DNA from: Buchnera aphidicola (Pemphigus populi)
GTDB lineage: Bacteria > Pseudomonadota > Gammaproteobacteria > Enterobacterales > Enterobacteriaceae
Direction of reading: 5' to 3'
Length of the DNA stretch: 64,000 nucleotides
Assembly: GCF_964058935.1 (NCBI RefSeq)
Contig: NZ_OZ060372.1
Span: 434,001-498,000, forward strand
The notes beneath the pieces are model-generated. The model did not search any database and was not told the origin of the DNA. It worked only from the letters and a program-made list of their open reading frames with translations. Positions 7,116-53,305 of the stretch are shown one piece after another. The translations under genes and the position numbers were made by a program. The stretch's first letter is position 1; the number at the start of each line of letters is the position of its first letter.

Positions 7116-8016
7116 ATGAATACTAAAATAAAAAAAAATATTAATTGTAGATGGTACATTTTATTTATATCGTGCTTACTATACTTTTCCATCTTTAACC
7201 AATAGATGGGGAGAACCGTCTGGAGCAATATACGGTGTAATTAGTATGTTGCGTAAATTATTAATACAATATAAAGAAAATCCAATTATAGTAGTATTTG
7301 ATTCACCTCATAAAAATTTTCGTCACATTCTATTTAAAAACTATAAAAAAAATAGACCAAATATGCCCACAAGTTTAAAAAATCAAATTCCAATGTTATA
7401 TAAAATAATAACATCAATTGGAATACCTATAATCACTGTACCATTAGTAGAAGCAGATGATATCATCGGCACTTTATCTTATTGTGCTGAAAAAGAAAAT
7501 TTCTCTGTATTAATTATGAGTAATGATAAAGATATGATGCAATTAGTAACTCAAAATATTAGAATTATTAATTCTACATATAATATTAAAATAGGACCTG
7601 ATGAAGTAAAAAAAAAATATGGCATACCACCAATACTAATAATTGATTTATTAGCATTAATGGGAGATACTTCTGATAATATACCAGGGGTACCAGGAAT
7701 AGGAGAAAAAACAGCTTTAATACTCTTAAGAAATTTTGGTTGTCTTGAAAAGATATATGAAAAAATAGAAAATATAATGATATTACCAATTCGTGGAAAA
7801 AAAAATATCATTATAAATATGAAAAAAAATAAAGAAATTGCTTTTCTTTCAAAAAAATTATCAACAATTCGATTAGATGTACCAATTAATATTAATTTCA
7901 AAGATTTAAAAATATCAAAATTAAAAAAACAAGAGCTATTATATTTTTTCCATTACTATAACTTTAAAAAATGGAATCAACAGGTAAAAAATGATTCATG
8001 GTTACCAATACAGTAA
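7116..8016 (+). CDS. polA: DNA polymerase I, 5'-3' exonuclease domain (separate reading frame; leader frameshift)
   Basis: Matches the N-terminal 5' nuclease domain of E. coli Pol I, which removes RNA primers and nicked flaps. The natural start is ATG 7116 (MNTKIKK), but the frame breaks in a run of nine A (7130-7138). Downstream of the run, the frame that reads LIVDGTFYLYRAYYTFPSLTN is the true one. One base fewer (or two more) in the run gives 299 codons. The next in-frame ATG (7246) would omit the conserved Asp of LIVDG, a metal ligand, so translation from there should be inactive. Other motifs are intact: EADDIIGTL, SNDKDMMQLV, GDTSDNIPGVPGIGEKTA. It ends with a stop at 8014-8016, at the linker to the polymerase domain. 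Confidence 0.85.
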
Positions 8017-9773
8017 TAACAAAATATACCGAAAATATAAAAAATATTGAATACAATATAATTTTAAAAAAAGAACAATTTGAAAAAATGTTAAAAATAA
8101 TAGAAAAATATAACAACTTTTCTTTTATAATTAAAACAAACTTACCAGATATACATACTAATAATATTACTGGATTTTCTTTTTCCGTTATTATTAATCA
8201 AGTATTTTACATACCCATAATTGATAAAAACATATTATCTTTAAAAATTAAGGATAAAAATAATATTTTAAAAAAAATAAAAAATTTATTTGAAAATCAC
8301 AATCAACTAAAAATAGGTCATAATATAAAAAACAATTATCATCTATTAAAAAAATATAATATTAAATTATCTGGTAATACATTTGATACCATGATTGCAT
8401 CATATGTATTAAATAATACACATAAAAACCATATAAAAATAGAAGAGTTAGAAAATCTATGGATTCAGAATAATAAAAAAAAAAATACTAATCGAGAAAA
8501 AAATATAGGTCAAGAATCTGAAATAAATTTAAAAATATACATAGTAATGCTTCTTTATTTAAATAAAGAAGAAAAAATTAAAAAAATAATAGAAAATATA
8601 GAAATTCCATTAGTAAAAATAATAGCTAATATTGAAGAAAATGGAATTTTAATAAATATTAAACAATTAAAAGAACAATCAAAAAAAATTACTACTCAAT
8701 TAGTTAAATTAAAACATGATGCTTATCAATTAACAGGTACATCATTTAATATACTTTCTTCGCAACAATTAAAGAAAAATCTACTCATAATTAAAAATAG
8801 AAAAAATAGTGTTACATCTAATATCAAAAAAAACGATATGCTACTTAATATTGTTAAAAATTACCGTAGTTTATATAAATTAAAATCAACATACATTGAT
8901 CCACTACCAAAAAGAATTAATAAAATAACAGGTAGAATACATACATGTTATTATCAAACAAATACTTTAACAGGTCGCTTATCATCTAAAAATCCTAATG
9001 TACAAAATATTCCATCTAAAACTAAAGAAGGTAAAGAAATCCGAAAAGCATTTATATCTGAAAAAAATTATTTCATCGTTTCTGCTGATTACTCTCAAAT
9101 TGAACTAAGAATTCTTGCATATGTATCAAAAGATAAAGAATTGATTAAAGCATTTTCTAACGATTCAGATATATATAAAATAACAGCATCTGAAATATTC
9201 AATATTCCCATAATAAATGTCACTGATGAACAAAGGCAGCATGCAAAAGTAATCAATTTTAGTTTAATTTATGGAATGGGACCCTTTGGTTTGTCAAATA
9301 AACTTAATATCAATATATTAACAGCAAAAGAATATATAAAAACATATTTTAAACGTTATAGAGGTATTAAAAAATATATAAAACATACTTATCAATTTGC
9401 ACTAAAAAAAGGATACGTACTGACATTGTATGGAAGAAAGATACATATTCCACATATTACTTCAAAAAACTTTTTAATACGTCAATCCGCAGAAAGAACA
9501 GCAGTAAATGCTGCTATTCAAGGAACGTCTTCTGATATAATCAAGTTGGCAATGGTTAAAATATATAATTTTTTTAAAACACAACATCATTTAAATGCAA
9601 AAATAATTATGCAAGTTCATGACGAATTAGTATTCGAAATAAAAAAAGAAAAAATAAATAGTATCTGTAAAGAAATACGTAATATTATGGAATCTAATAC
9701 CATATTAGATACCCCAATACCTGTAAGAATTAAAATAGGTCATAATTGGCAAGATACCATAAAAACTATCTAA
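7998..9773 (+). CDS. polA: DNA polymerase I, Klenow-like fragment (separate reading frame; proofreading site lost)
   Basis: 591 residues matching the Klenow part of Pol I. Polymerase motifs are intact: motif A SADYSQIELR (Asp about 364), motif B RQHAKVINFSLIYG, motif C QVHDELVFE (Asp about 542). The 3'-5' exonuclease domain is present in outline but its metal ligands are gone: the DTE triplet (E. coli D355/E357) aligns with IIK at residues 44-46, the KYD of D424 with KNN, and D501 with Ser. The frame overlaps the nuclease frame by 19 bases. A TGA at 7992-7994 closes this frame upstream and there is no A run at the junction, so this looks like a true gene split rather than slippage. ATG 7998 is the first usable start, with no good ribosome binding site; coupling to the upstream gene is plausible. 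Confidence 0.9.
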   Translation: MVTNTVITKYTENIKNIEYNIILKKEQFEKMLKIIEKYNNFSFIIKTNLPDIHTNNITGFSFSVIINQVFYIPIIDKNILSLKIKDKNNILKKIKNLFENHNQLKIGHNIKNNYHLLKKYNIKLSGNTFDTMIASYVLNNTHKNHIKIEELENLWIQNNKKKNTNREKNIGQESEINLKIYIVMLLYLNKEEKIKKIIENIEIPLVKIIANIEENGILINIKQLKEQSKKITTQLVKLKHDAYQLTGTSFNILSSQQLKKNLLIIKNRKNSVTSNIKKNDMLLNIVKNYRSLYKLKSTYIDPLPKRINKITGRIHTCYYQTNTLTGRLSSKNPNVQNIPSKTKEGKEIRKAFISEKNYFIVSADYSQIELRILAYVSKDKELIKAFSNDSDIYKITASEIFNIPIINVTDEQRQHAKVINFSLIYGMGPFGLSNKLNINILTAKEYIKTYFKRYRGIKKYIKHTYQFALKKGYVLTLYGRKIHIPHITSKNFLIRQSAERTAVNAAIQGTSSDIIKLAMVKIYNFFKTQHHLNAKIIMQVHDELVFEIKKEKINSICKEIRNIMESNTILDTPIPVRIKIGHNWQDTIKTI

Positions 9774-9839
9774 TCAATCTGTAATATTTTTTATAAAAAA
9801 ATAATTTGATATAAAAAATATATTAATATTTCATTCTTA

Positions 9840-10451
9840 TTAGCTATACCAATCGTCTAATTGTTTACGCAATACATCAACCCCTATTTTTTTAAAAGAA
9901 GAAAATAAACATACATTCAAAGATGTTAATAAAAATAGAGATAATTTTTCAGAAACCATTTTTAATTTTTGTCTTTGACTTTCAAATATAATTTTGTCTG
10001 ATTTTGTTAACAACACTAATATTGGAATATTAAATTTCTTAGAAATGATAATCATATTTTTATCAAATGGCTTCATAGGATGTCTAATATCCATAAATAA
10101 TACCAATCCTTTTAAGGATTTATTCATTTTTAAATATTTAATAATAATTTTTTCCCATTGTAGTTTTAATACTTTAGATGTTTTTGAATAACCATATCCA
10201 GGCATATCCACTAAATAACATTTTTTCGTCACAGAAAAAAAATTAATTAAATTTGTTCTACCTGGAGTTTTACTAATTCTGGCTAATTTTTTTTTATTTG
10301 TTAGCACATTAATAGCGCTAGATTTACCAGAATTGGAATAGCCAACGAATAAAACCTCGGATACATCAGAATTATTTTGTTTTTTTATATGTGCCATACT
10401 ACTTAAAAAGTACGTATTTTCATAATTATTTTTCAAAATATTATTTTCCAT
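9840..10451 (-). CDS. engB: Ribosome biogenesis GTPase EngB (YihA/YsxC)
   Basis: A small GTPase involved in assembly of the large ribosomal subunit. All G motifs are visible in 203 residues: G1 GYSNSGKSSA near residue 37, G2 region SKTPGRTNLINFF, G3 DMPGYGYS, G4 TKSDK. It is convergent with polA, 66 bases apart, the arrangement kept in E. coli (polA-yihA). The start at 10451 (MENNILKNNY) gives the usual length. The spf RNA gene found between these genes in enterobacteria is absent. Confidence 0.95.
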   Translation of the reverse strand: MENNILKNNYENTYFLSSMAHIKKQNNSDVSEVLFVGYSNSGKSSAINVLTNKKKLARISKTPGRTNLINFFSVTKKCYLVDMPGYGYSKTSKVLKLQWEKIIIKYLKMNKSLKGLVLFMDIRHPMKPFDKNMIIISKKFNIPILVLLTKSDKIIFESQRQKLKMVSEKLSLFLLTSLNVCLFSSFKKIGVDVLRKQLDDWYS

Positions 10452-10703
10452 TTTTTTAAATCAAAAAAATAAATACATACCTTTATATAAGATATAATTC
10501 AATTTAATGTTAATATATTCAAGAAATCATAAAATACATAAAAAAAATTAGTATGATTCACTTTTATATTTTATAATAATACAAGATCTAACTAATCTTA
10601 AATAAATAAAGATGGTATCGACATATTTTATATTTTTATCTGATATCAGTAATACTTAAATAATAATTGATATTATTATACCCTAATATTTTAAGGTAGT
10701 AAA

Positions 10704-12524
10704 ATGAACAAAAATTTAAGGAATATAGCTATAATAGCTCATGTCGATCACGGTAAAACAACATTAGTAGATAAATTACTACAACAATCAGGCACCTTTC
10801 AAGATCATGAAGAAACCACTGATAGAATCATGGACTCCAATGATCTAGAAAAAGAAAGAGGAATTACTATTTTATCTAAAAATACAGCCATTCAGTGGAA
10901 TCACTATCGTATCAATATTGTAGACACACCTGGTCATGCTGATTTCGGTGGTGAAGTAGAACGAGTAATGTCTATGGTTGATTCTGTATTATTGGTAGTA
11001 GATGCTCTTGATGGTCCTATGCCACAAACTAGATTTGTAACACAAAAAGCTTTTAATCATGGTATAAAACCAATTGTAGTAATTAATAAAATTGACAGAA
11101 AAAATTCTAGACCAAATTGGGTAGTAGATCAAGTATTTGATCTATTTGTAAACTTAAATGCAACAGATGAACAATTAGATTTCCCTATTATATATACTTC
11201 CGCATTACTTGGTATAGCAGGAACAGATTATATTAATATGAAAAAAGACATGAGTCCTCTCTATAAAGCTATAGTAAAATATGTTTCTCCACCATATGTT
11301 AATCCTAACGGTACTTTGCAAATGCAAATATCTCAGTTAGATTATAATAACTATCTTGGTATTATTGGTATAGGGAGAATTCAACAAGGTTCAATCTGTC
11401 CCAATCAACAAGTCACTATTATTAATAATAATGGCATAACACGTTCAGGTAAAATAGGAAAAGTATTGAATTATTTTGGATTAAAACGAATAGAAACGCC
11501 TATTGCCTACGCTGGAGATATTATTGCTTTAACTGGACTTAATGAATTAAATATCTCTGATACTATTTGTGATCCTAAAAAATTACAACCACTACCAAAT
11601 TTAAATATAGATAAACCTACAGTAAAAATGTTTTTTTGTGTAAATACATCACCTTTTTCTGGGAAAGAAGGTAAATATTTAACTTCTAGACAAATTTTTA
11701 AAAGATTAAAAAAAGAAGAAATCCATAATGTAGCTCTACTTATTGAAGAAACTACTGATGCAAATGTATTTTGTGTATCTGGAAGAGGAGAATTACATTT
11801 ATCTATATTAATTGAAAATATGAGAAGAGAAGGTTTTGAATTATCTGTATCTCGTCCTAAAGTAATTTTTCGTGAAAAAAAGAATGAGATCCAAGAACCT
11901 TTCGAAGATGTAACATTAGACATAGAAGAAAAACATCAAGGAGCAATCATGACAGTTATGGGTCATAAAAAAGGAGAAATAAAAAATATGATACCAGATA
12001 ATAAAGGAAGAGTTCGGTTAGACTATATATTGACTAGCAGATCTTTAATTGGATTTCGAGCAGAATTCATTAATATAACTTCTGGAACTGGATTATTTTA
12101 TTCATCCTTTAGTCATTACGGAAATATGCAATTCAATAATACGGGAAATAGAAGAAACGGCGTATTAATTTCTAACAATACAGGTATGGCTGTAGGATTT
12201 GCTCTTTACAACTTACAAGAAAGAGGTAAGTTATTTTTAGGTCACGGAACCCAGGTATACGAAGGACAAATTATTGGCATACATAATCGTTCTAATGATC
12301 TGACTGTCAATTGTCTAACAGGGAAAAAATTAACTAATATGCGTGCTTCAGGGACAGATGAAGCCATAGTATTAATTCCACCTATAAAAATTACACTTGA
12401 TAACGCTTTAAGTTTCATTAATGATGATGAATTGGTAGAAGTCACGCCAAAATCAATTAGATTGAGAAAAAGATATTTAACAGAAAATGAAAGAAAACGA
12501 GTATCTAGATCTAATAGAAATTAA
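10704..12524 (+). CDS. typA: Translational GTPase TypA/BipA
   Basis: An EF-G-like ribosome-binding GTPase linked to stress adaptation and ribosome assembly. Full length at 606 residues. GTPase motifs: [10 protein letters not shown] near residue 12, [12 protein letters not shown] near residue 73, NKIDR near residue 129; the later EF-G-like domains ([21 protein letters not shown]) and the TypA-specific C-terminal part follow. A ribosome binding site (AAGG) precedes ATG 10704. It is convergent with gmk, and a perfect 21-base inverted repeat sits just behind its stop. Confidence 0.96.
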
Positions 12525-12577
12525 ATATTTTTCTATGAAATAATTTTTTATTCGTTATTTTATTATATTCAAAATTA

Positions 12578-12665
12578 ATTGAACCTTGATTAGAATAAAT
12601 AACTTTATGAGTTAATCACATATTAATATCATTACTTATTCTAATCAAGGTTCAATACTTTTTTT
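12578..12665 (+). terminator. Long perfect hairpin between convergent typA and gmk
   Basis: The arms at 12578-12598 and 12636-12656 are perfect reverse complements over 21 bases, separated by 37 bases. The right arm is followed by a run of seven T (12659-12665). The position, 53 bases after the typA stop and about 40 before the gmk stop, fits a terminator for typA and perhaps a two-way barrier. The loop is much longer than in an ordinary intrinsic terminator and the arms are G+C-richer than their surroundings, so another role (RNA processing or recent duplication) is possible. Confidence 0.6.
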
Positions 12666-12698
12666 CTAAAAAATTAATAATATTAGACGTTAAAAAAT

Positions 12699-13325: not shown

Positions 13326-13503
13326 GATTTTCGCAATACATTTTAAAAATCTTCACTCATGCAATTAATAGCAAATAAATTTAATAAAAAGAGATATATT
13401 TTATACATATTCTATATATGTAAATATATGAAAAATATTTTTAACAAAATTAAAATATATTATATCACTTAATAAGAAATACAACAAAAAATATCTAATA
13501 TTT

Positions 13504-14496: not shown

Positions 14497-14660
14497 AATA
14501 TTTTTAATTAATATTTAAAAATAATTAATACTATATCATAGTAGTACTTATTAAAATTAATATATATTATTTTTTATAGTTATATGATAATGCATATCTC
14601 TGAAAAAATTATAATATTCTTAAATTATATTTAAACATATATAACAAGGGGTATATAAGC

Positions 14661-15758: not shown

Positions 15759-15766
15759 GAAACACT

Positions 15767-17281: not shown

Positions 17282-17398
17282 AAATACTAATATATTTAAT
17301 ACAATTGAATTAGTTTTATTTTTATATAAAAATGGTAAACAAAATAAAAATAAATATTTTTATTTAAAAAATCTATTTAATAACAGGATTAACATTAA

Positions 17399-18655: not shown

Positions 18656-18764
18656 AAATAATAAGAAAAATTTATAAAATATACAATATATCTATCTGGT
18701 ATATATCAAATATAAACATAAAATTTAATATTTATATATTAAACATATAATATATAGGAACTGT

Positions 18765-19617
18765 ATGAACAATACTTATATATCTTTTCCTCAGTTTAAC
18801 CCTATAGTTTTTTCTATAGGACCAATTACTTTGCATTGGTACGGAATTACGTATCTTTTAGGTTTCCTTTTTGCCCTATACATGGGAAAAAAAAAATAAA
18901 AAAAAATAATCAATGGACTCAAAAGGAAATAGAAGATCTTATCTTTAATGCTTTTTTTTCTCTTTTGATAGGTGGAAAATTAGGATATATTATTTTTTAT
19001 AATCCATTTTATTATTTCACTAATGCAACACATTTATTAAAAATATGGGAAGGAGGTATGTCTTTTCATGGAGGTTTCCTTGGAGTTTTAATATATGTAT
19101 TTTTTTTTCAAAAAAAACAAAAAAATCATTCCTACAAATAACAGATTTTATTGCTCCTTTAGTACCTTTTGGATTAGGAGCTGGACGTATTGGCAATTTT
19201 ATTAATGGTGAGTTATGGGGTAAAGTGGCTACTGATATGCCTTTATCAATTTTATTTCCGGGATCAAAAGAAACAGATTTAATACTTTCTACTTTTCATC
19301 CAGAACTACAAATTTTAATTAATAAATTTGGAGTTCTTCCAAGACATCCTTCTCAAATATACGAATTTTTTCTAGAAGGAATAATTCTATTTTTTATCTT
19401 ACATTTTTTTTCACGAATGGAAACAAAAAAAGGAACTGTATCAGCGATATTTCTTATTAGTTATGGGGTACTGCGAGTTATTGCTGAATTCTTTCGTGAA
19501 CCAGATCTACAAATTGGTTTATTATTTGGTATCATCAGTATGGGACAAATACTATCATTACCAATGATTACTATTGGAATAACTATAATGATTAAAAATA
19601 ATATTAAATATGTATAA
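18765..19617 (+). pseudogene. lgt: Prolipoprotein diacylglyceryl transferase, two frameshifts (pseudogene or slippage-rescued)
   Basis: The inner-membrane enzyme that attaches diacylglycerol to the lipobox Cys of lipoproteins. Three successive frames give a full Lgt: MNNTYISFPQFNPIVFS from ATG 18765, then WTQKEIEDL to [14 protein letters not shown], then [20 protein letters not shown] to the stop at 19617. The first break is in a run of ten A (18887-18896), followed by T and nine A. The second lies within T9-C-A8-C-A7 (19100-19125). One extra base at each restores a 284-residue protein (E. coli 291). The key motif [15 protein letters not shown] is intact, so selection seems recent or continuing. 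The stop is 20 bases before thyA, as in E. coli. Confidence 0.85.
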
Positions 19618-19637
19618 TGTTTATTATTAGGAAAATT

Positions 19638-22043: not shown

Positions 22044-22501
22044 ATGACAAATATAATACTAGACATACAAAAATCCTATTCCAATAATATTTATATACCA
22101 AGAAAAAAAGATTTTAAAATATGGTTAAAAAAAATTTTAAAAAATAAAAAATTAACATATGAAATTACTATAAGAATAGTAGACAAAAAAGAAATAAAAG
22201 AAATAAATTTAAAATATAGAAAAAAAAACCAACCTACTAATATATTATCTTTTCCAAATTTAGACACTACAAAAAAAAAATAAAATTTTTAGGAGATTTA
22301 ATTATTTGTCACACAGTAGTACAAGAAGAAGCTAAGGCACAAAAAAAAACACTAGAATCTCATTGGGCCCATATGACCATACATGGTGCTCTTCATTTAT
22401 TAGGATATGATCATGTAAATAAAATTCAACAAAAAATAATGGAATCATTAGAAATAAATATAATGCTAGCATTAGGATATATAAATCCATACACATTTTA
22501 A
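22044..22501 (+). pseudogene. ybeY: Endoribonuclease YbeY, one poly(A) frameshift (pseudogene or slippage-rescued)
   Basis: A metal-dependent endoribonuclease for 16S rRNA maturation and ribosome quality control. The first frame from ATG 22044 (MTNIILDIQKSY) runs through PTNILSFPNLDTTKKK and stops at 22281 within a run of ten A (22271-22280). One extra A moves into the frame KFLGDLIICHTVV, then the zinc motif HGALHLLGYDH, ending YINPYTF at 22501. The repaired protein is 152 residues (E. coli 155), with the catalytic histidines intact. The first frame is open further upstream to 21966, overlapping miaB; homology favours 22044, although no good binding site precedes it. Confidence 0.85.
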
Positions 22502-26430: not shown

Positions 26431-27428
26431 ATGATTCTTAAAATTAATGCAGAAAATTTAGAAAATCAGTTACTGAAAGGATTAAATAATTCTTATTTTA
26501 TTATTGGAAAAGAAGAATTCTTTATTCAAGAAAGTAAAAAAATTTTATTAAAATTAGCAAAAAAAAAACAATATTTTGAAACAATTTCAGTATATATTAA
26601 ATCCAATACAGATTGGCAAAAAATAATGAATACGTATCAAGATCAGAGTATATTTTTTACAAAAAAAATTATTATTTTAATATATAAAAAAGATACATTA
26701 GATAATAATTTTTATAAAAATTTTAAAAAACTATCTTTCCTATTTAATAAAAATATTTTATTCATTATGCAATTTGAAAACACCAAAATTTATCATCAAA
26801 AAAAAAATTTTTTTGATCAATTACAAACCAAATCCACTATTATTTACTGTAATACGCTTAAATTGAATGATTGGTATAATTGGGTAGATAAAAAAATTTT
26901 AAAAATGAAACTAAATATCAATGATAATGTAAAAAAATTATTATATCAAAACTATGAAGGGAATCTCTTTGCATTATCAAATATATTAAATATATTTGCA
27001 TTGCTTTATCCATCTACTGAAATTACCTTACATCAATCAAAAAAAATAATAGAAGATTTATCACTGTTTACTCCTGTACAATGGATAAATGCCATATTTG
27101 AAAATAAAAAAAAAAGTCTCTTAAAATAATAGATAGATTGCATAAACAACAATATAATCCTACACTTTTAATCCGATTAATACAAAAAGATTTGCTAATA
27201 TTAATTCATATGAAAAGAAATCAAAAAATAAATTATCATCTATTTTTAAATGAAAAAAAAATTTGTCATAAACGAAATCTAATATTAATTAATGCTTGCA
27301 TAAATAGCAAAAACGAAAATTTATATAAAATGATAAAAATCATCACACATTTAGAATTAAAAATAAAAAAAAACCATAGTAATCAATCGTTATGGACACA
27401 ATTAAGATTACTATCTTTACAATTCTAA
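26431..27428 (+). pseudogene. holA: DNA polymerase III delta subunit, one poly(A) frameshift (pseudogene or slippage-rescued)
   Basis: Delta opens the beta clamp within the clamp loader. The frame from ATG 26431 (MILKINAENLENQL) runs 232 codons and stops at 27129 after passing a run of ten A (27106-27115). One extra A enters the frame SLKIIDRLHKQQYNPTLLIRLIQKDLL, which continues to 27428 (SLWTQLRLLSLQF). The repaired length is 332 residues against 343 in E. coli, and similarity to E. coli HolA runs across the junction. Delta is needed for replication, so a silent loss would be surprising; slippage rescue or sequencing error is more likely. It follows leuS, as in E. coli (lptE is missing between them). 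Confidence 0.85.
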
Positions 27429-34127: not shown

Positions 34128-34179
34128 ATATTAATTAATAAAATTAATTAAATTTTTTACGTTATTTAAAAAATATTGA

Positions 34180-35364: not shown

Positions 35365-38300
35365 ATGTTTTCAATATATAAATCTAATAGATTGGATATC
35401 CTGATCAATCAAGCATGTGATATTATTAAAAAGAACCCATTATCTGAACCTTTACAAAATGAAATTTTTTTGGTACAAAATATAGAAACTACCCAATGGA
35501 TTAAAATTTTTATAGCAAATAAATTAAAAATATCTGCTAATATTAAATTCTTTACAACATCGGATTTTATATGGAAATTATTTAAAATGATCGATCCAGA
35601 TGTTATATCTAAAAAAAAATATTACCACTCTAGTATTACATGGTACATAACAAAATTAATAGAAGAAAAAAAAATTACTGATTTTATTAATAAAAAAGAC
35701 TCTCAATTAAAAAAAATAATGTTTGCATCTTATTTATCTAAATTATTTAGAAAATATTTAGTTTACCGTCCCGATTTGATTAGTTCTTTAAGAAAAAAAA
35801 ATCAATATTTTAAAAAAAATAAAGAACAAACATGGCAAGAAAAATTATGGTATGAATTAATTCATAGTTACATTAAAAATTCAAAGTATTTTGATTTTTT
35901 AAATTTATCATCTATTTTGTTAAAAAAAATAGAAACTTCCAGAACTAAATTATCATTCATTCCATTCCGTTTTTTTATTTGTAATATCTCTGATATACCC
36001 ATATCTTATCTATCTTTATTATATTCTTTAAGTAAATATTATCAAATAAATTTATTAATGATCACCCCTTATATGAATCATGAATTTTTTATAAAAAAAG
36101 AAAAAAACAAAAAAAAGTCAAATATATATATAACTTCTAAAAAAAAATATTATAACTTATATGAACAATGTTATAAATTAAACATCATAGATCAAGTAAA
36201 TCCAATATTACTATCTTGCGGAGGTTATGGATATGAATATTCATATTTTTTACTTTCAATGCAAAATAAATATATTAATTGCTATACAAATACCTATAAA
36301 AATAACTTATTAAATTATATTCAAAAAAATATTTTACAGTCAATAAATAAAAAAAATAAAAATCAAGATAAAAATTTTACTAATAAAAAAATGATACTGA
36401 ATCCAAAAGATAATTCTATATCAATACATATTTGCTGTAATATACAAAGAGAAGTAGAAGTATTACACGATAATTTGTTAAGTCTATTTAATAAAAATTC
36501 TTCACTATTTCCAATAGATATTATTATTAAAACTTTTCGATTACCTTTATATGTTCCTTTTATTAAAAACGTATTTAATTCTGTACCTATTAAACACTAT
36601 ATTCCTTTTATCATTTTTAATGAAGTACCTGATCAGCACCATGAAATATTATCTATTTTAAAAAAACTATTTAATTTAGAAAAAAATAGACTATATAACA
36701 AAGAAATATTTGAGTTATTACAATCAAACATATTAGCAAAAAAATTCCATATTGATAAGAAAGATATTCCAATCTTATTCAATTTAATATATAAATCAGG
36801 AATTCGATGGGGTATAGATGAAGAACATATGAATAATCTATTATTACCAACCAATGTCCAACATACTTGGGAACATGGTATAAAAAGAATAATGTTAGGT
36901 TATGCAACTAATCACCAAGAATCATCTTGGAATGATACCGTGCCATATAATATAAATAATAAATCAAATATTAAAGTAATATGCAAAATTATATACTTAA
37001 TAAAAATACTACATAAATGGAAAAAAAAATTGTCAACATGTAAATTGCTTAAAACATGGTTACCTTTATGTCGTAAATTAATAGATGATTTCTTTTATAT
37101 AAATTCTGACACTGAAAATATATTAGATAAAATTGAGAAAATATGGGTAAAAATTATTCATACTGGAATGAAATCAAATTATAAAAAAAAATTCCTATTT
37201 CAGTATTGCGTAATAAACTTTTTTCTCATGAGTTTCATTTAAACAATAATTGTAAAAAATTATTTTCCGGACCAGTTATTTTCTCAAAATTTTCTGTATT
37301 ACCCACAATACCTTTTAAAGTTGTGTATATTCTTGGGTTTAATCATGATAATTTTCCAAAAAAAACAATATCACAAGAAATAAATTTAATACAAAAAAAA
37401 CCAAGAATATGTGATCCTAATATTCATAATCAAGACCGATATTTATTCTTAGAAATATTGCTATCTGTAAAAGAATATTTATATATTAGTTATATAGGAG
37501 ATACTATTGATTTTCCTTCAGTTAATTATCCATCTATTATATTAGATGAATTAATCAATTATATCACTCAAAATTTTTATGTCCCATCAAAAAAAAGTAA
37601 GAGTTCAGATAAAAACTCAAAAAATATCATTTCACATTTATGCTTCTTGCATACAAAAACAGCTTTTGACAGAAAAAATTTTATTAAAAATGATCGTTAT
37701 CAAAGCTTTGATACAGAATGGTTAAAAATAGCTAACTCAAAAAAAAATATATCATCGACATTTATACAACCGCTACTACCTAAAACAAAAAAAAATATAA
37801 ATTTTAAAGAACTTATATCCTTTTGGAAAAATCCCATTCATTATTTTTTTAAAAATAGATTAAACATTAATTTAAACTTGAAAAAATTAAAAATGACAGA
37901 AGATTTTATACCTAATTCTTTAAATCGTTATAAAATAAGATTACATATACTTAAAAAAATAATTAATAATGAAGACATTTCTAATATTTTTAAATATTTT
38001 ACTAATATTGGATTATTGCCATATAATAATTTTAGTTTAGCCTTTTTAGAACAGCAAAAAAAAGAAATTATACCTTTAGCAAAAAAGATATCTATAATCC
38101 ATCAATTATCTAGCATGAAAAAAAATTTTCATATTAAGATAAACGATTATTACCTAAAAGGTAGTCTACAAAATATTTATGAAATTGGATTATTGCGCTG
38201 GAAACCTAAAATTCTTAATTTCAATGATAGCATATTATTATGGTTAGAACACCTACTCTATTGTTTTCTAGGCGGAAAAGAAAAAAGTATAATGTTAGGT

Positions 38301-38669
38301 ATCAATAATAGTAAATGGAATTTTAATCCTCTAGATAAAGAAGAATCTTATCATTATATTAAAAAATATATATCTGGATACATACAGGGATTACAACAAC
38401 CTTTATTACTAATCACCTCAGGTATGAATTGGATAAATATAGTATATGACAAAATAAATAAAAAAATGACAACAAATGATATTATAAAAAATAAAGGATA
38501 TAAAAAATTACTCAGTACATGGCATGGTAATCAATATTATATTGGAGAAAAAAACGACCCCTATATAAAAAAAATAATTCCAGTACTAAATAAAAATTAT
38601 ATTGATAAAATATGCCGTACATCAAAATATTGGTTAACATCCATATTAAATCATCAATCAATTAACTAA
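35365..38669 (+). pseudogene. recC: Exodeoxyribonuclease V gamma chain, one poly(A) frameshift (pseudogene or slippage-rescued)
   Basis: RecC is the scaffold and Chi-reading subunit of RecBCD. The first frame (35365-37242) matches the N-terminal half; the frame break is in a run of nine A (37183-37191). One extra A leads into IPISVLRNKLFSHEF, which aligns with E. coli IPLSLLRDELAQRL, then PTIPFKVVYILGFNHDNFP and DRYLFLEILLSVKEYLYISYIGD, ending at 38669. The repaired length is 1101 residues (E. coli 1122). The C-terminal half is too well conserved for an old pseudogene. recB and recD follow in order; ptrA, between recC and recB in E. coli, is lost. Confidence 0.88.
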
Positions 38670-42228: not shown

Positions 42229-42255
42229 TAAATATGTATTAATAAAGAAATATTT

Positions 42256-44090
42256 ATGAAAATGATTACTTTACTAAAAAAAGCATTAAAAAAAAAATGA
42301 TTAATGATATTGATTTTTATTTTGGTACTTATATAGCCACTGAAAAAGAACCAACACTAATGTTAGTAGCCACTTGCGTTAGCTATAGCGTTGGTTGTGG
42401 TCATGTATGCTTACCAATATTAAATATTAAAAAAAAACTTGTATTCCCGAAAAAAGAAAAAAAACTAATAAATGAACTATGGAATTTAGCAGGAAACTTT
42501 AAAAACTTAACTAGTATATTGCTTAATAGCAATATAGTTGGTTACAATAATAATTTAAAACCTTTAGTTTTGTCTAAAAATAATTTATATTTAAATTATT
42601 TATGGCAAGCTGAAAAAAAAGTATTTGAGTTTATATCGAATAATAAAAAAGAAAAATTAAATATTATATTTTTAAAAAAAATATTGAAATCATTGTTCCA
42701 TAAAGATAATGATTATTATCAAAAAATTTCTGTAGCTATGACTATGATATGGAAAATAATTTTTATAATTGGAGGACCGGGAACAGGAAAAACCACTGTT
42801 ATTGCGAAAATACTATTAGCATTAATACGTATATCTGAAAAAAAAATCAAAATAAAACTTACGGCTCCAACAGGAAAAGCTGCATCACGCTTAACTGAGT
42901 CTTTAACATATGCTTTAAAAAAAATTCAATTAAATGAATTAGAAAAAAAAATATTACCAAAAGAAGCTATTACTTTACATTCTCTATTAGGTATTACAGA
43001 AAAAAATAAAAAACCATTTTTTAATATTAAAAACATGTTAAACATAGATGTATTAATTATAGATGAATCTTCTATGATAGATTTATTACTTATAGAAACA
43101 CTAATTAATGCATTACCTAAAAATACTAAAGTAATTTTTTTAGGAGATGTCAATCAACTACCTTCAATTGAACCTGGATGTTTTTTAAAAGACATATATT
43201 TTAATCATCATCATGCTTATAGCCACAGTACCGCAAAAATATTAACAAATATTACCGGATGTAAAATTAATACAATAAAATATCTATCAAATACTATTCT
43301 TAATGATAGTATCTGTATTTTAAAAAAAAAATATAGATTTCATGATAAATCAGATATTGCTCAATTAGAAGAAGATCTAAATACAAATCAATTAAATGTT
43401 ATTAAAAAAATATTTTTTAATCAGTACAAAAATATTACTCAGTATCAAATTAATAATAATGATGATTATCATCATATGATAATAAAAATTGTACAAGAAT
43501 ATAGTAAATATTTAAATTTAATAAAAAAAAACACACATCCGAAAAATATAATTAAAAAATTTAAAGAATATCGTGTGCTTTGCGCTATTAAAAATGGAAT
43601 ATATGGTATTAAAAAAATTAATACACACATAGAAAAAGAAATGGAAAAAATGAATCTCATTCAATCTTATCAAATTAATAATAATACTTGGTATATCGGA
43701 AAACCTATTATGATTACTAAAAATAACAAATCTTTAAAGTTATTAAATGGTGATATAGGTATAACTTTATTAGATAATAAAAAAAAATTAAAAATTTTTT
43801 TTCTATCTTCCTATAATATTATTAAAATAATACCTATTGAACTTATTTCTGAATATGAAACAACTTGGGCAATGACAATTCATAAAGCACAGGGATCTGA
43901 ATTTACACATACAGTATTAATTTTACCAAATAAAGATTATGCTATCTTAACAAAAGAATTACTCTATACAGCTATAACAAGAGCATGTAATAAATTAACT
44001 ATTTATGCTGAAAAAAAAATATTACTAAAAATAATGAAAAAAACAAATATAAGATATAGCGGATTAAATACTTATTTATCACCATTATAA
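42256..44090 (+). pseudogene. recD: Exodeoxyribonuclease V alpha chain, poly(A) frameshift in the leader
   Basis: The 5'-3' helicase subunit of RecBCD. The continuous frame starts at ATG 42297, but the family N-terminus lies upstream: ATG 42256 gives MKMITLLKKALKKK, which aligns with the E. coli start, and stops at 42300 behind a run of ten A (42288-42297). One extra A joins it to MINDIDFYFGTY for 611 residues (E. coli 608). The rest is intact: Walker A GGPGTGKTTVIAK, VLIIDESSMIDL, LGDVNQLPSIEPG, TWAMTIHKAQGSEF and LYTAITRA. Starting at 42297 would cost only 14 residues, so the protein may work without rescue. Confidence 0.88.
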
Positions 44091-44182
44091 AGATACATTT
44101 ATAAAATGATATATCTTAATTTATTTTATTTATTAAAAATAAATAAATATTTATTTTAAGTATTTTTGAAAAACGGAAAACA

Positions 44183-45357
44183 TCATACGTTTTTACTATG
44201 AGGATACCTACTTAAATTAAGTTTCTTAAAACCTTTTTCTTGAGAAGACAAAATACTTTCTACAGTCAAAAATATTTTTTAAATTATTTTTTATCTTTTA
44301 TTTTTATTTCTTTTAATAAAAATATCTGCTTAAGTAAATTTAAATAATTAGGATATACCACAAAAAAAAGCTATTTTATCCAATTTTTCTTTAAAAAGGT
44401 ATATAAATCAATGATTTAGTATCATTAAATCATCTTTTTAAAAGATTTTAAATATTTCTATTTTAATCTCTAATAGTTCTTGAAACCAGCGTATTAATAT
44501 TCCATTTTTCTCTAAAATAAGAATTAATTCTTAATTAACTCATACATCATATGTATATATTGCTATCTTATCTGATTTGCTAATTTAATTAACATTTTTA
44601 TATCTATCTCATCTTTTGAAAAATAATTCCTGTAATAAAAACCTATCTTTTTTATAACTAATGTAATAAACATAATATACCTATTTTAAAATACTTACAC
44701 GTCACATCAAAATAAGAAATATTGAAGAATAATAATGATTTAATCATGCTAGGGAATAAATTTTTCTTTCTATAAAATTAAAAAACATTATAAATATAAT
44801 ACCTTCATATTCATCCATTAAACCTTATTTTTTAGAAAAACCTATCATTTTTTCTATATTAAATTCCATTTACCACTGGATAGTATCTTTGTCTATTTTA
44901 TAAATAGAAGTACTAGATTAATAGTCTACACCATCATAGCAACAACAAAAAGTTGAAAATAATAAAATTTATATTAAAAATATGAATATTGGCTTCTTGA
45001 AGAGATGTATTACTTAAACTAATTGATAAAACCTATATGTAATATCTAACGGTAATTAACCAGCTTTTTTTAGCTATTTTAAAATTTTAATAATCTGTAA
45101 TCCATTTATTTTTATGATATTTTAGTTAAATATTTGATTTAAAAAAAATCTTATTAACTGGAGAACTTCCTCCATATAAAAATTAAACGAATCACTAAAT
45201 TTTATGAAACTCTATATCATTAATATATACCAAAAAAATTTATAAGCTCAATTATTTCTCTTCCTAAAACAATCGAAAATCTTTTACCAAGATGGGAATT
45301 AATATCAGGAATAATGTGAAACAACACTTAAACTCATTCAGTACCGATTTCTTGCAT
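44183..45357 (-). pseudogene. argA: Decayed N-acetylglutamate synthase gene
   Basis: On the minus strand behind recD (E. coli also has argA in opposite orientation beside recD). The start region, from about 45357 (MQEIGTE), continues after stops into FHIIPDINSHLGKRFSIVLG and REIIELINFFGIY, matching E. coli [30 protein letters not shown]. The end reads LTVESILSSQEKGFKKLNL and SRYPHSKNV with a stop at 44183, matching the acetyltransferase C-terminus. Many stops and frame changes lie between, so no long protein is possible. ArgA makes N-acetylglutamate, the first step of arginine synthesis. Limits are approximate. Confidence 0.8.
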
Positions 45358-45654
45358 ATAAAAATCTATTTTATTTTTTTAATCAATGATTCATTACCAA
45401 TTAATATATTTAAAAATAAATAGAATATTTATATCATATATAAATATAGTAAATTAATCTACATTGACATTAAAATAATGTATATTATATTATGAATATT
45501 TGTATATAAAAATAATTTTTTAAAATAAAAAAATAAGAAAAAATATTTTTATTTTTTAATAAAAATATTTTTTATATGATGAATAGTAAATAAATTAAGA
45601 AAAAATAAATTTATATATTAAACCTTTTACTAATTCTTAAAATTTGTTTGATAT

Positions 45655-45731
<77 letters not shown>

Positions 45732-45746
45732 TTCGTTAATATATTT

Positions 45747-45774
45747 ACTATACTCTTCTATAATTATCATGCAA
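45747..45774 (-). promoter_or_regulatory. Probable sigma-70 promoter of tRNA-fMet
   Basis: On the minus strand TTGCAT (45769-45774) and TATAGT (45747-45752) are 16 bases apart, and the -10 box ends 15 bases before the tRNA 5' end. The distance fits a short tRNA leader. Confidence 0.55.
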
Positions 45775-46759
45775 CCTTTTTTTTTAAAAATCATAAAATT
45801 ATTACTTAATCGTTTATTTTTTAATCAAAATATATATATTTTAAAAAAATAATTTTAATTAAAATTTTTTTTAATTATTAACTCATAAAATATTTTATGG
45901 GATGTTCACCCAAAAAAATATTTAAATAATATTTAAAATATAATATTTTTTAAAAAATTATACAAAAATATTAAAAATAACAAATACATTCATACTAAAT
46001 TGAAATATATATAAAATATACAATATTTTAAAAAATAAAATCTTCATAAATTAAAGATATTTTATATTTAGAATATAAAAAATTAAAGACAAAAATAAAA
46101 ATAAAAGATCATAGACTGAAATATAAATTTCATAAAAAACTTATAAATTATGAAAAAATAAAATATAATATTAAAGAATAACGCTAAAAATAATTTTTGT
46201 ATATCTGTATAACAATAATATTAACCAATAGAAACGAAATAAAAATAAATAATTAAAATATAAAGTATAGAATATTATAGATAATATCTATATATTTTAT
46301 GCTTTCAAAAAGTTAATAAATATTTTTATTAAGAATTGCTGTTCTTAAAAAATGTATATATCTGTCAATTATGCAATTCCATCATATCAAGATATCCTAT
46401 TAATAAAATATTTTCTCTAAATAAATCAAATTTTTCATGACCAATATTAACCATATTAATTAATAATACTCAATATTAATCAACATTTTAAAGAAAAGTA
46501 TATTAATCCAGAAATTGGAATAAGATCCTTTTAACCCACTAATCTTATAAAAATTATGAGTACATTTTAATATTCGAATTAAAATATTTATGAACTAAAA
46601 TGGTAGATACTAAGTTTAAAACTATTAATAATATTATTCAATTTTTAATATTAATTAATTAGTTTAAAGATCAGTAAGCAACAAATAAATATTTTGTAAA
46701 AATTTATGTTATTATATTACTCATTATTGATAAACCAATATTTTTTAATAAGGATAAAA
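45775..46759. other. Gene-free stretch between tRNA-fMet and ribH
   Basis: About 1 kb without an intact gene. On the minus strand near 46380-46450 a short open piece (NIGHEKFDLFRENILLIGYLD) faintly resembles part of the murein transglycosylase MltA, which is near argA and metZWV in E. coli, but its orientation is not the one expected, so I do not call it. Probably eroded coding DNA. Confidence 0.45.
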
Positions 46760-47236: not shown

Positions 47237-47388
47237 AAAAATCTATAACAAGTTATATTAAATATATATATTTTATTGGTATAAAAATAATATTTAAATA
47301 TTATAACTAAAATTTTTAAAAAATATTATTAATGTATTTAATTAATTATTTTACCTCTTAAAATTTTTTAAAATATATCTATAATACA

Positions 47389-48250
47389 TTGGAAATTATA
47401 AAAAATATTTTTATAAAAAATGTAATACCAGTAATTAAAGATAATTATGAAATTATTAAAATATCAAATAAAAAATAATTTATATTAGTACTAATACTCT
47501 TGTAGAAGTTATTTCTCTTTTACCTAATAATATTGCACCAAAATATTTAAGATATACAGCTATAGCTGTCAACCTTAGTGATTAATCTTCTACTGGTTCT
47601 CAATTTAAATAGATAACATTAAATTTAACCTTACTTAAAATTTGTACTATATGGTTAAAAAATTTTAATAATAGATTACCAGAAAATAATAAAAAATATA
47701 CTATAAAACGAATAAGAGAAGATGCTACTCAAGGAGTATTCAATATTATAATACGTATTCTTGGATATAAAATTGTAAAGAATAAATTTTTTATAATAGA
47801 GAAAAATTGAAAAATTAATATAAGTTAAAGTAAATTAAAAACCATTTCTGTAGATTATATTTTTACAAAAAACATTTATTAACATAAAATATATAAATAT
47901 TTAATAAAAAATGTTTGCATCATTATCCACGAATTTTATAAAGTATAGATTTAAAAACTATCGAAAACTCTGATATTGATATTTTTAATGCATTATTATG
48001 ATATTTAAACCATATTGAATATGCAAGTCGATGTACAACTGATTTTATTTTAAATAAAATACCTATTTCTAATATGTTAAAAAAATTTACATTTTAAAAA
48101 ATGTTCAAATTGGTCGTTAAAACAAGGGGGAAGAATTATGCTTTATAATACCTCAAAAAATATTTTCAATCGATGTTTTGGTAAAATAAAGTACCCTATA
48201 CTTTCATCAAAACAATTAAGAAAAATAAAAAAACTTAATATATTTTAAAA
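47389..48250 (+). pseudogene. thiL: Decayed thiamine-monophosphate kinase gene
   Basis: Pieces of ThiL appear in order but in shifting frames with stops: IIKNIFIKNVIPVIKDNYEI (47395 on), STNTLVEVISLLPNNIAP, YLRYTAIAVNLSD (E. coli YKALAVNLSD) near 47550, YLNHIEYASRCTTDFILNKI near 48010, and WSLKQGGRIMLYN near 48110, where the family has WALSGGEDYELC. The ATP-binding SGGEDYE is therefore also degraded. ThiL turns thiamine phosphate into the cofactor thiamine diphosphate. In E. coli the gene follows nusB; here it lies between ribH and ribD. Limits are approximate. Confidence 0.75.
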
Positions 48251-48406
48251 TTAAGAAAAATTAAATATTACTTTAATAAAGCATAATTACTTTAAAAAAA
48301 ATAAAAATTACATTAATAGTTTTATTCCATTATTATTTTTTATAAAAAATTTCAAATTACCATAAAAATAGTATCTCAATTTTTCTCATAGTATTAATAA
48401 GGAATT

Positions 48407-49510: not shown

Positions 49511-49563
49511 TAAAAACAAAAATTGAATTTCATCAATAATATAAATTCCATTAGGGAATGAAT

Positions 49564-49986
49564 ATGAAACCAAATTCTCGTAGAAAAGCTCGTGAATGTA
49601 TCATACAAGCACTGTATTCTTGGCAAATATCTAAAAATAATATTCGCTATATTGTCTCTCAATTTTTAGAAGAAAAAAATATTAAAGAAATAGATATCAA
49701 TTATTTTCATGAATTAATTATGGGTATTGTAAATCACTGCCAAGTGATAGATGAATTAATAAGACCTTATTTGTCTCGCACATTAGAAGAAGTAGGACAA
49801 ATAGAAAAAGCTATTCTAAGATTATCTTTTTACGAATTATTAAAAAGATCAGATATTCCTTATAAAGTTTCTATTAATGAAAGTATAGAATTAGCTAAAT
49901 CTTTCGGAGCTGAAGATAGTCATAAATTTATTAATGGTGTGCTCGATAAAGCAGCATGGAAATTAAGAATTAACAAAAATAAATAG
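49564..49986 (+). CDS. nusB: Transcription antitermination protein NusB
   Basis: Binds boxA RNA with S10 in rRNA antitermination. Start chosen at ATG 49564 ([14 protein letters not shown]), because AGGGA at 49553-49557 is 6 bases upstream and the E. coli protein starts at the same place; the ATG at 49558 would overlap the binding site too closely. This gives 140 residues (E. coli 139). [17 protein letters not shown] near the N-terminus, [13 protein letters not shown], and [14 protein letters not shown] then FINGVLDK are typical. Confidence 0.95.
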
Positions 49987-51780
49987 ATTTCATTAAAAAA
50001 ATAATTTTTTAAAAAAAATAAATATGAAAATAAAATATTTACATATTTTTTATTGTATTAAGTAAAAATATTATTTTTATACCTTATATCTAACTAATTA
50101 TTTCTCTTAACTTTTCTTTTTACCTGAAAAAATAAATTAATTAATAAAATTATATTTTATATCAATTAAAATATAATAAGAAAAATTATCCTATTAATTT
50201 TACATATAAATTTTACTAATTTAATAAAAAACTAATAAAATATTGTTTTTTGAATTCAATCAATATAAATCAATCTGAATATTTAAAAATAATTATTCTT
50301 ACTCAAATTTTTTCGTAATGATATAATTTTAATTTATTTTAAACTTTTAATTCGTAAATAGTATACTAATTGAATCATAAAAAACATTGATAATTTTTTA
50401 TAAAAAAATTTACTAATGCAAAATTATAGCATTAACTTTATTACTAATAATTATAATACTTATATGAAATATATTGCAAAAATAAAAAATAATTTTATAT
50501 AAAAACATACTTATCTCTAATTTAACCATATTTTCATTAAAAAAATAAAAAACATGTAAAAATAAAAAATAATCTAAAAACTATATTTAATTAAATTAAT
50601 AATTAAGAGACATCAGTGTTTAAAATAGAATGCTATTCCCACTAATTTAATTAATTTTTATTAATATCATTATCCTTTAAGATAATACTATATCATCATA
50701 AAAAATTCTAAATTTTTTCTATTATAAAGAAATAAATCAAAATATTAATAATAATGACTAACATCAAATATGGAAAATAGAAACTTTAAAAAAATATATT
50801 AATAACTTAAAAAATTGTGATATATATATACTAATATATCATCATACTATATAATAATTATAATTATTGATATTGTTTTTAATATTGAGTATTTATTTAT
50901 GATCTAATAATATTTTATTAAATAAATTTTATTTTAAACTTTAATTAAAAAAATTAATATTATTTTTTACTATTATTTACGCGTTACTATTACCGTCAAC
51001 AGTACTATTTATAATTCTAAATTCTATAAAAAATATCATGTGCTTACTTTAAATAGAACTAATCCTCTTTACATTTTCCCTATTTTCAATAGTAATATTT
51101 TTTTCTGTACTAAAAATATTCAATTATCAATTAAAAACAAATTTTATCTAATACTAAATATGTAATATTTTACATGATAAAATTTAAATAAGATAAATTT
51201 TTATTTTTTAATATATTAAAAAATAAAGAAAAAATATTTTTTATATATAACATTATTATAATAGTAGTAAAATACCTATAAATCGAAGAAAACAGTCGTA
51301 TACTACATACTATTTAAAAAAATTAATAAGATTTACTAATAAATTGCAAAAAATTTTAAGAGAAAAAATTATTAATATATCAAATATGTATTAAATATAG
51401 AATTAATAAATTACCAAATTTTTATAACAAATATTTATCATTCATAATTATAAAATTATTCATTCTATCAATAACTCCGTATTAAAATATACCATTATTT
51501 TCATAATAAAAATATTTTTAATAAAAAAATATGAATATTTATTTTAGTTAATAAATATTCATATTTTTATCTAAAATCAATGAAATAAAAAATATAGCAT
51601 ATTTATTTAAAAAATTTTTTTAATTTTCCCTAAAAAACTGTATTTTCTATTTTTAAAAAATTATTTATTTTTATCGTGATCAATATATTTCTAATATTTA
51701 TTAATCTATCTTATTAAGATGTTTAATAAGTTGAACAAAAAATGAAATAATATTAAAAATATTCTATTTTTTAATTAACC
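49987..51780. other. Large gene-free stretch between nusB and yajR
   Basis: Nearly 1.8 kb, with no frame I can assign on either strand. In E. coli the interval holds thiL, pgpA, dxs, ispA, xseB, thiI and others. Short open pieces between 50700 and 51400 do not match any family I can name. The only clear structure is a 19-base hairpin near the right end (51525-51568). The stretch is most likely eroded coding DNA. Confidence 0.5.
51525..51568. terminator. Perfect 19-base hairpin, probably a two-way terminator for yajR and nusB
   Basis: Arms 51525-51543 and 51550-51568 are perfect complements with a 6-base loop (TTAGTT). The left arm begins with A5 and the right arm ends with T5, so a U run follows the stem core in either direction. 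It lies about 210 bases behind the yajR stop. Confidence 0.6.
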
Positions 51781-52938
51781 TTAATTCTTTATTCTACAGC
51801 TAACTAAAAACCATAATATAGAAATTATTAATCCACATATTAATAAACCTAATACATTAAATACGCTAAATATCCATCCACCTAATATTCCTCCAAAAGA
51901 TATACCTAAAAATTGTGCCGTGGAATACGTACCCATAGCTGTACCTTTGTATTTAAAAGAAGATTTTTTACCTACTAAAGATGGAATTAAAGATTCTAAA
52001 ATATTAAACGCTATGAAAAATATTTGAATACCAAATAAGAAAATATAAAATGAAGAAATAAAGTGATAACAAATAAGCTCTGATAAAATAAGTAAAATAT
52101 TTGATATTAATAATATTGGTATCGTCCATGATTTTATTATAGAACTTAAAAAAAATACCATAACAAACAGAAAAGAAATAAACATAATAATCAAATATAA
52201 TTTCCAATAATTTTCTAAAGTAAATTTTAAAAATTCTAATTGTATAGGTAACAAAATAAAATTAAACATCAGCAATATATGCAATATGAAAATACCAAAA
52301 TACAATTTCATTAAATCATGATTGTTTATTATACTAATAATACTATCTTTAAAACTATGTATGTTAAAATCATTAGATAATATACGAATATTCGGAATAA
52401 AAAAATAAGTTATTAAAATAGCTAAAAAAGATAAAAAACAAGTAATCCAAAATAAAGCATTAAAGTTAAATATACTAATAATCATCGGTCCAACAATAAT
52501 TGACAGTGCAAATGTTAATCCATAAGTAATACCAATTAAAGCCATTACTTTTGTAAGATGTAATTCTTCAACTAAATCAGATACAAAAGCCATACAAGTA
52601 GCAGAAATAGCACCTGATCCTTGTAATGCTCTACCTACTATTAAACCCCATATAGAATGAGTAATAGCAGAAACTAAACTTCCTAAAGAAAATAATATTA
52701 ATCCAAATAAAATAACTGATTTTCTGCCAATTTTATCTGAAAAAAAACCAAATGGAATCTGAAATAATAACTGTGTGATTCCATAAACACCAATGGCTAA
52801 ACCCACTAAAAATTTATTTCCATGTTCTAAAAATAAACCATAAGTACTAAGAACAGGAAGGATCATGAACACACCTAAAACACGTAAACTTAAAACAATA
52901 CATAATCCAATTACAGCTTGTAATTCTTTTTTTTTCAT
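51781..52938 (-). CDS. yajR: Major facilitator transporter, YajR type without the C-terminal domain
   Basis: 385 residues with about twelve membrane helices. MFS signature GFFSDKIGRKSVILFG near residue 63, and GRALQGSGAISATCMAF near residue 109, closely matching E. coli YajR (GRALQGSGAIAAAVMAL). The match continues to GTAMGTYSTAQFLGISFGG and stops at SCRIKN, so the soluble C-terminal YAM domain of about 65 residues in E. coli YajR is absent. The substrate is unknown. It is next to cyoE, as in E. coli. The frame ends cleanly with TAA. Confidence 0.88.
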   Translation of the reverse strand: MKKKELQAVIGLCIVLSLRVLGVFMILPVLSTYGLFLEHGNKFLVGLAIGVYGITQLLFQIPFGFFSDKIGRKSVILFGLILFSLGSLVSAITHSIWGLIVGRALQGSGAISATCMAFVSDLVEELHLTKVMALIGITYGLTFALSIIVGPMIISIFNFNALFWITCFLSFLAILITYFFIPNIRILSNDFNIHSFKDSIISIINNHDLMKLYFGIFILHILLMFNFILLPIQLEFLKFTLENYWKLYLIIMFISFLFVMVFFLSSIIKSWTIPILLISNILLILSELICYHFISSFYIFLFGIQIFFIAFNILESLIPSLVGKKSSFKYKGTAMGTYSTAQFLGISFGGILGGWIFSVFNVLGLLICGLIISILWFLVSCRIKN

Positions 52939-52982
52939 TTTATAATTTTTACATTTCTATTAATTAATATCTATAATATAAC

Positions 52983-53305
52983 ATGATACATACACATAAA
53001 AAAAAAATAAACACCATAGTAATAATAATGAAAAATATAAAACATGGAATAAATATATAGGTGAACAAATTGCAAAAAAAAAATTTATTAAAATGAGCCC
53101 CCAACATTGGGAAATTATATATATTGTACGAAAATTCTATGTAAAATTTAAGATAACACCATCAATGAGAATGTTATTAGCCTATATAGAAAAAAAAAAT
53201 AAAAAAAAAATAAATAGTCAATATTTATTTATACTTTTTTCTGATAACGCTATCGTTAAAATTAGTGCTATTGCTGGTGTTCCCAAACCAAAATCATGTT
53301 TATAA
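52983..53305 (+). CDS. tusE: Sulfur relay protein TusE, poly(A) frameshift in the leader
   Basis: The last carrier of the Tus relay, handing sulfur to MnmA for tRNA 2-thiouridine. The frame containing SPQHWEIIYIVRKFY, PSMRMLLAYI and the C-terminal KPKSCL (active Cys) is open upstream through KTWNKYIGEQIAKKKFIKM, which also aligns with TusE, but has no ATG before it closes. ATG 52983 (MIHTHKKK) joins it if one A is added to a run of ten (52998-53007), giving 107 residues (E. coli 109). The internal ATG 53093 would give 70 residues lacking the first third. A non-ATG start is the alternative. tusA is also in the window. Confidence 0.75.

Follow-up and report, generated by a model that had tools for sequence, protein, structure and literature searches.

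Are genes whose reading frames break off at long A or T runs decaying, wrongly sequenced, or still read into complete proteins? This question is raised by a stretch of 64,000 nucleotides from Buchnera aphidicola (Pemphigus populi) (contig NZ_OZ060372.1, positions 434,001 to 498,000; the whole stretch is referred to as the window), for which a preliminary description had listed eight frame breaks at homopolymer runs in seven conserved genes, namely polA, lgt, ybeY, holA, recC, recD and tusE. With a probability of roughly three in four, we consider these breaks to be real one-base changes in functional genes, the frame of which would be restored at expression, most likely by slippage of the RNA polymerase. 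The analysis is based on assembled genome and protein sequences and on published passages, and we infer frame repair from sequence. The window has a G+C content of 23.5% and lies on a contig of 610,921 bases, within a genome of 618,636 bases in four contigs. Its class II fructose-bisphosphate aldolase shares 81% identity with the one from Buchnera aphidicola (Formosaphis micheliae), in keeping with a Buchnera of a gall-forming aphid. We compared this genome (G000) with three genomes of the same genus (G001, G002 and G003) and with 55 small symbiont genomes, which were hand-picked by size and genus from a larger list and are possibly not all Buchnera. The RecC of G002 is identical to the database RecC of the Formosaphis micheliae symbiont (P0241).

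Eight frame breaks in seven genes

All eight breaks are present in the letters of the window, at the tracts and coordinates that had been described (Table 1). The genes were identified by family-model matches to the window pieces (Lgt, YbeY, HolA, RecC, RecD and PolA), and the junctions were tested with open proteins of the relatives, using tblastn and frame-change alignment. The relatives' proteins aligned in two frames over five of the eight junctions by tblastn, and the frame-change alignment recovered all eight. Each break consists of one insertion or deletion, located in a run of A or T that is about nine bases long or longer, and the genes are open apart from such breaks; lgt contains two of them, the second within a cluster of runs. 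In the seven genes, the frame-change alignment detected no additional frame change at any tract.

Counted modulo three, seven of the eight breaks are one base short. Coordinate arithmetic reproduced the restored protein lengths that had been proposed, which are 284 (lgt), 152 (ybeY), 332 (holA), 1101 (recC), 611 (recD) and 107 (tusE) amino acids. The polA leader, described as needing one base fewer or two more, indeed has this odd register: direct reading gave one extra base, which is equally two short. The frame-change aligner, whose path contained one stop, had called this break short and was overruled by reading the letters. Among the relatives, ybeY is open as open reading frames (ORFs) of 152 amino acids in G001, G002 and G003, and holA is open in the same three genomes. 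The gene recD is open in G001 and G003 and broken at a different A10 in G002. The exonuclease part of polA matches a 304-amino-acid ORF of G002 at 60%. For the 3' piece of holA (96 amino acids) taken alone, no family-model match was obtained.

Table 1 Positions of the broken genes in the window and of further homopolymer breaks in the same genome. Coordinates outside the window are given as locus and position.
Feature	Position	Strand	Details
polA leader	7116-7138	+	ATG at 7116; A9 at 7130-7138, then frame change
polA 5'-3' exonuclease part, downstream frame	7139-8016	+	ORF from 7246 matches N-terminal part of DNA polymerase I models
lgt, two breaks	18765-19617	+	A10 at 18887-18896; T9-C-A8-C-A7 at 19100-19125; TIGR00544 in both pieces
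ybeY	22044-22501	+	Break in A10 at 22271-22280; TIGR00043 in 5' piece
holA	26431-27428	+	Break in A10 at 27106-27115; TIGR01128 in 5' piece
recC	35365-38669	+	Break in A9 at 37183-37191; RecC models match both pieces
recD, leader break	42256-44090	+	A10 at 42288-42297; RecD models cover ORF from 42297
tusE, leader break	52983-53305	+	A10 at 52998-53007; ORF of G003 belongs to TusE/DsrC family
tilS, outside window	L017:15335
rsmD, outside window	L038:4487
yigL-like, outside window	L038:8787
ruvX/yqgF, outside window	L042:9977

Shared breaks and selection in recC and lgt

For four of the eight breaks, namely those in recC, the polA leader and the tusE leader and the second one in lgt, one or two of the three relatives are broken at the same tract. 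The recC tract is an out-of-frame A9 in G000, G001 and G003, and an in-frame A10 in G002. At the second lgt break, G000, G001 and G003 share identical run lengths (T9-C-A8-C-A7), and G002 is open. The Lgt of a further relative, taken from another sequence collection and available as protein only (P0122), is likewise broken; of the residues of its 190-amino-acid form, 178 match G003 and 173 match G001. The A9 of the polA leader is out of frame in G000, G001 and G003 and open in G002. It is one short in G001 and G003; G000 has one A fewer in a short run just before the tract and therefore a different register. The A10 of the tusE leader is broken in G000 and G001 and open in G002 and G003.

To quantify selection, dN/dS was calculated between G001 and G003, both of which carry the recC break and the second lgt break. 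The ratio was 0.18 after the recC break (448 codons) compared to 0.19 before it, and 0.22 after the second lgt break (170 codons). Intact genes of the same pair gave values of 0.19 (recB), 0.18 (recD), 0.29 (holA) and 0.33 (ybeY). A gene that had remained unread since its break would drift towards a dN/dS of 1; recC and lgt, with their low values, are therefore apparently still read over their entire length. Furthermore, the 44 codons from the recC tract to the next ATG of G001 and G003 keep the downstream frame in the comparison of G000 with G001, with codon-position differences of 5/5/18 and with 12 synonymous and 12 non-synonymous codons. The several lesions and relaxed selection of a decaying pseudogene were found in neither recC nor lgt. 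In contrast, five frame changes and nine stops mark thiL (thiamine-phosphate kinase, 47487-48308) as decayed; the gene is also decayed in G001 and open (326 amino acids) in G003. The argument that conservation beyond the breaks speaks against old pseudogenes thus holds for recC and lgt, where breaks are shared and purifying selection is undiminished after them, whereas ybeY, holA and recD show only conservation to open relatives.

Breaks in recC are also found beyond the three relatives. At least 14 of the 55 small symbiont genomes have a broken recC (G001, G003 and twelve loci fetched from genomes in which recC looked broken; recC of G278 and G397, with an internal stop, was left out). The tract-associated break is one short in eleven of the twelve fetched loci and one extra in G222; recC of G196 also contains a stretch of N. 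The A9 in question, which encodes three lysines, is the site of the break in G001, G003 and G049. In the 38 genomes for which this tract was displayed, it is an out-of-frame A9 in four (G000, G001, G003 and G049) and an in-frame A10 in six, including G002. A RecC protein from a Buchnera metagenome-assembled genome (P0329), judged by its end only, stops in KKKFLFQY, the same residues as at the tract break. For recB, at least eight of 55 genomes are broken (one short in six, one extra in G278, decayed in G330; recB of G246 and G118, with an internal stop, was left out), and for recD at least four of the 54 with a match (one short in G002, G205 and G264, decayed in G330). It might be speculated, with considerable doubt, that the out-of-frame recC A9 has been retained as useful, slippage metering the supply of RecBCD. 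If true, this would account for repeated recC breaks in aphid symbionts despite normal selection.

The database Lgt entry P0121 has 284 amino acids. It probably derives from this genome, the lgt breaks having been bridged by the makers of the entry. RecC P0243, from the same database contig and among the best 120 matches, has only 625 amino acids.

Tract length, direction and competing explanations

In 264 kb of G000, we checked 195,214 relative-supported coding bases. The proportion of broken A tracts increased from 0/247 (A8) to 3/128 (A9) and 6/42 (A10); the other tracts, given as unbroken plus broken, were A11 3+0, A12 1+1, T8 52+0, T9 9+1 and T10 4+0. The lgt cluster, which would add one A8 and one T9, stands outside these counts. 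A10 tracts were broken more frequently than A9 tracts (Fisher p = 0.008), and A8 tracts differed from A9-A12 plus T9 (p = 7e-5). The breaks exceed chance, as their frequency climbs with tract length. The window is rich in such tracts: A/T runs of at least nine bases number 76 in its 64 kb, compared to 132 in 200 kb sampled elsewhere. Of these, 8/76 and 4/132 were broken (p = 0.033), although this test is unfair because the window had been chosen for its breaks, and the value of four per 200 kb is a lower bound, as the search outside the window can overlook breaks near gene starts. These four further curated breaks concern tilS, rsmD, a yigL-like HAD phosphatase gene and ruvX/yqgF; the rsmD break is an A12 with one extra base and is shared with G001. 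Runs of nine or more are unevenly distributed between the strands of the window, with 62 A runs and 14 T runs on the + strand and an AT skew of 0.105.

Several candidates were dropped before counting. These were tract-less frame changes at the ends of alignments (yigL, trkH, the lgt C-terminus and a second event in recC of G351), a frame change at a run of N in recC of G196 (the source of a one-extra label there), matches to an antisense ORF opposite rbfA (L041, L046 and L051; rbfA named from sequence), other G001 and G003 matches to ORFs overlapping an opposite-strand gene, the rpsR/rplI boundary (L042, named from translation), a 5' extension of recD in G001 and a second polA leader step in G000.

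A hand tally of independent breaks in otherwise open genes gave 35 one short and three one extra (16 and 1 in this genus; 19 and 2 in recC, recB and recD of other genomes); it includes low-identity recC alignments (G264, G068, G071 and G177; 31-37%) and a few rows with one stop in the path. Decayed genes as controls gave 30 short and 10 extra (14:0 in G330, 16:10 in the rest). Individually, the ratios were 9:0 and 5:0 for recB and recD of G330, 1:2 and 0:3 for mutS and truB of G002 (truB named from sequence alone), 3:0 and 3:2 for thiL, and 9:3 for mutS of G196, the alignment of which was poor. The tally differed from the controls with p = 0.067 overall, 0.083 without mutS of G196, 0.004 without G330 and 0.002 without both. 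The one-short direction that had been noticed before is real (35 of 38), but the biased deletion process suggested as its cause is not separated by these controls from a filtering of one-short breaks by rescue. The bias could result from deletion-biased mutation, from the retention of breaks that are repairable by RNA insertion or a -1 ribosomal slip, or from both.

Under the explanation that we favour, replication slippage in the A+T-rich genome would alter long A/T runs by one base, mostly through losses. RNA polymerase would slip on the run and add bases to a share of the transcripts, and the restored frame in those transcripts would yield full-length proteins. Rescue of the broken genes, towards which the preliminary description pointed, gains indirect support from the shared breaks and from the selection that persists downstream of the breaks in recC and lgt; for the other genes we infer it, as we do the slippage in transcripts, the efficiency of that slippage and the production of full-length proteins. 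The genes lgt, holA, tilS and yqgF are essential in E. coli. Slippage of the RNA polymerase is favoured because the kind and length of the tracts fit, published insertions are homopolymeric and corrected transcripts are known elsewhere: the published passages report that 151 of 157 insertions during Buchnera transcription fell in homopolymer runs, with an exponential rise with run length (PMC5574713), and that frameshifted endosymbiont genes had 12-50% corrected transcripts (PMC5009743). The recC A9, the lgt T9-C-A8-C-A7 and the polA leader are tracts at which slippage rescue is checkable in RNA of Pemphigus-type aphids, provided that it contains Buchnera reads; Illumina mRNA libraries have been described for Pemphigus obesinymphae (PMC9116674).

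Several observations weigh against rescue by RNA polymerase slippage. The breaks in ybeY, holA and recD (42288) occur in G000 only, of the four genomes. The first lgt break of G000 lies at an A10 of its own; G001 is open there, and the A-rich stretch carries a break in G002 and G003 as well, by our reading at the second of its A runs. These four breaks may be recent lesions or errors. Moreover, lgt requires two corrections on the same transcript, the polA leader and the rsmD A12 are in a register that one inserted base cannot fix, and PMC5574713 states that its data revealed no frame-restoring transcription error.

The odds of the other explanations are not exclusive, and causes may differ between breaks. 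The main rival, unlikely but deserving attention, is that ribosomes slip back by one base on A_AAA_AAA or U_UUU_UUU and thereby restore the frame. By our reading, a slippery zero-frame heptamer is present at all seven one-short breaks of the window, the register fit being absent at the polA leader, and a -1 slip would repair exactly the class that dominates the tally. However, no stimulatory RNA structure was found in 100 bases per site, pseudoknots not being considered (z-scores of -1.32 to 1.12 at the eight break sites and of -2.10 to 0.78 at eight in-frame A10 sites), and the one-extra cases (rsmD A12 in two genomes and the polA leader here) would not be repaired in this way.

That these genes have recently become pseudogenes, or are decaying into them, is improbable. 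Single-genome homopolymer lesions made up the majority of pseudogenes (42 of 69) in one Buchnera comparison, according to the passages of PMC3164680, and thiL is truly decayed within the window, yet purifying selection on recC and lgt is unchanged between two relatives that carry the breaks, and the seven genes are free of further frame changes at tracts.

A mixture of tract lengths among the genome copies of a cell, an in-frame minority of which would supply the protein, appears quite improbable to us. Polyploidy is high in Buchnera, and mutation is frequent in long A runs, but the consensus at recC is A9 in three related species, a state that an unstable mixture would hardly preserve.

We regard homopolymer errors of sequencing or assembly as hardly probable, too. 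A one-short bias is typical of such errors, and three of the eight breaks are confined to this assembly among the four compared, with the first lgt break at its own run. Against this, four of the eight are also present, at the same tract, in other assemblies (recC in G049, too), and 165 coding A9-A12 tracts of this assembly are in frame, many of which a run-shortening base caller should have broken. Error is therefore unlikely for the four recurring breaks, and the systematic base-calling error that had been proposed as an alternative finds no support. Finally, two separate polypeptides through internal re-initiation are very improbable: starts are available in recC (the ATG 44 codons past the tract in G001 and G003, a TTG at 37206 in G000), but the codons leading up to this ATG show constraint in the downstream frame and G000 has GTG in its place, which argues against re-initiation, and the downstream ORF of lgt would start with out-of-frame sequence.

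Neighbouring genes and known systems

The polA gene is split into two separate genes (7246-9773), one encoding the 5'-3' exonuclease and the other a Klenow-like protein (PolA model positions 288-887). The halves overlap by 19 bases (7998-8016), and the ATG in the overlap is kept in all four same-genus genomes. The separate polymerase gene is a predicted natural Klenow fragment. Elsewhere, polA seems split in G010 and fused in G021, and G013 has a decayed polymerase part. The mismatch-repair gene mutS (4184-6721, - strand) is open in G000, G001 and G003 and has three frame changes in G002; at an E-value of 1e-6, mutS had no match in 29 of the 55 small symbiont genomes. Tracts could become less stable where mismatch repair is lost. 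Two stretches (44090-46706 and 49986-51781) are without ORFs of at least 80 amino acids with ATG, GTG or TTG start. At gathering score, the Rfam search of the window returned only one tRNA. In these two stretches, a tRNA-Met at 45655-45731, within the first, was the sole RNA gene detected.

The breaks resemble programmed -1 ribosomal frameshifting of the dnaX type in their A_AAA_AAA runs and in their -1 direction. They differ from it in that no downstream structure was found and there is no sign that both products are needed. None of 12 papers returned by one literature search mentions recC, the other searches not having been aimed at these genes by name. Transcript-level rescue in Buchnera and Blochmannia was reportedly described by Tamas et al. 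in 2008. Such rescue is also reported in passages of PMC5009743, PMC3017870 and PMC3164680, and concerns, as here, long out-of-frame poly(A) tracts in genes that stay conserved. The present case differs in involving other genes and an lgt with two breaks, and in being known from genome sequence alone.

According to the passages of Degnan et al. 2011 (PMC3164680), Buchnera genomes contain 1-18 homopolymeric frameshifts each, and murF was struck independently in several lineages. As here, each is one indel in an A/T run, and the gene is otherwise intact. In comparison to them, the window and its surroundings involve recC, lgt, the polA leader, tusE and others, with four breaks common to more than one species and with selection quantified over two of them. 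For Blochmannia vafer, the corresponding passages list eight frameshifted genes, of which dnaX was inferred to be common with B. floridanus, and describe four vafer-only genes as not unusually fast-evolving (PMC3017870). Here, a different symbiont and gene set are concerned, and dN/dS is available for a pair in which both members carry the break. Comparison alone shows here that broken-looking genes can go on evolving as functional ones across species, so that counts of lost genes in reduced genomes may be mistaken. The kind of phenomenon is already known; what is added is the set of genes, the sharing of breaks within the genus, the selection over two breaks and the recurrence in recC.

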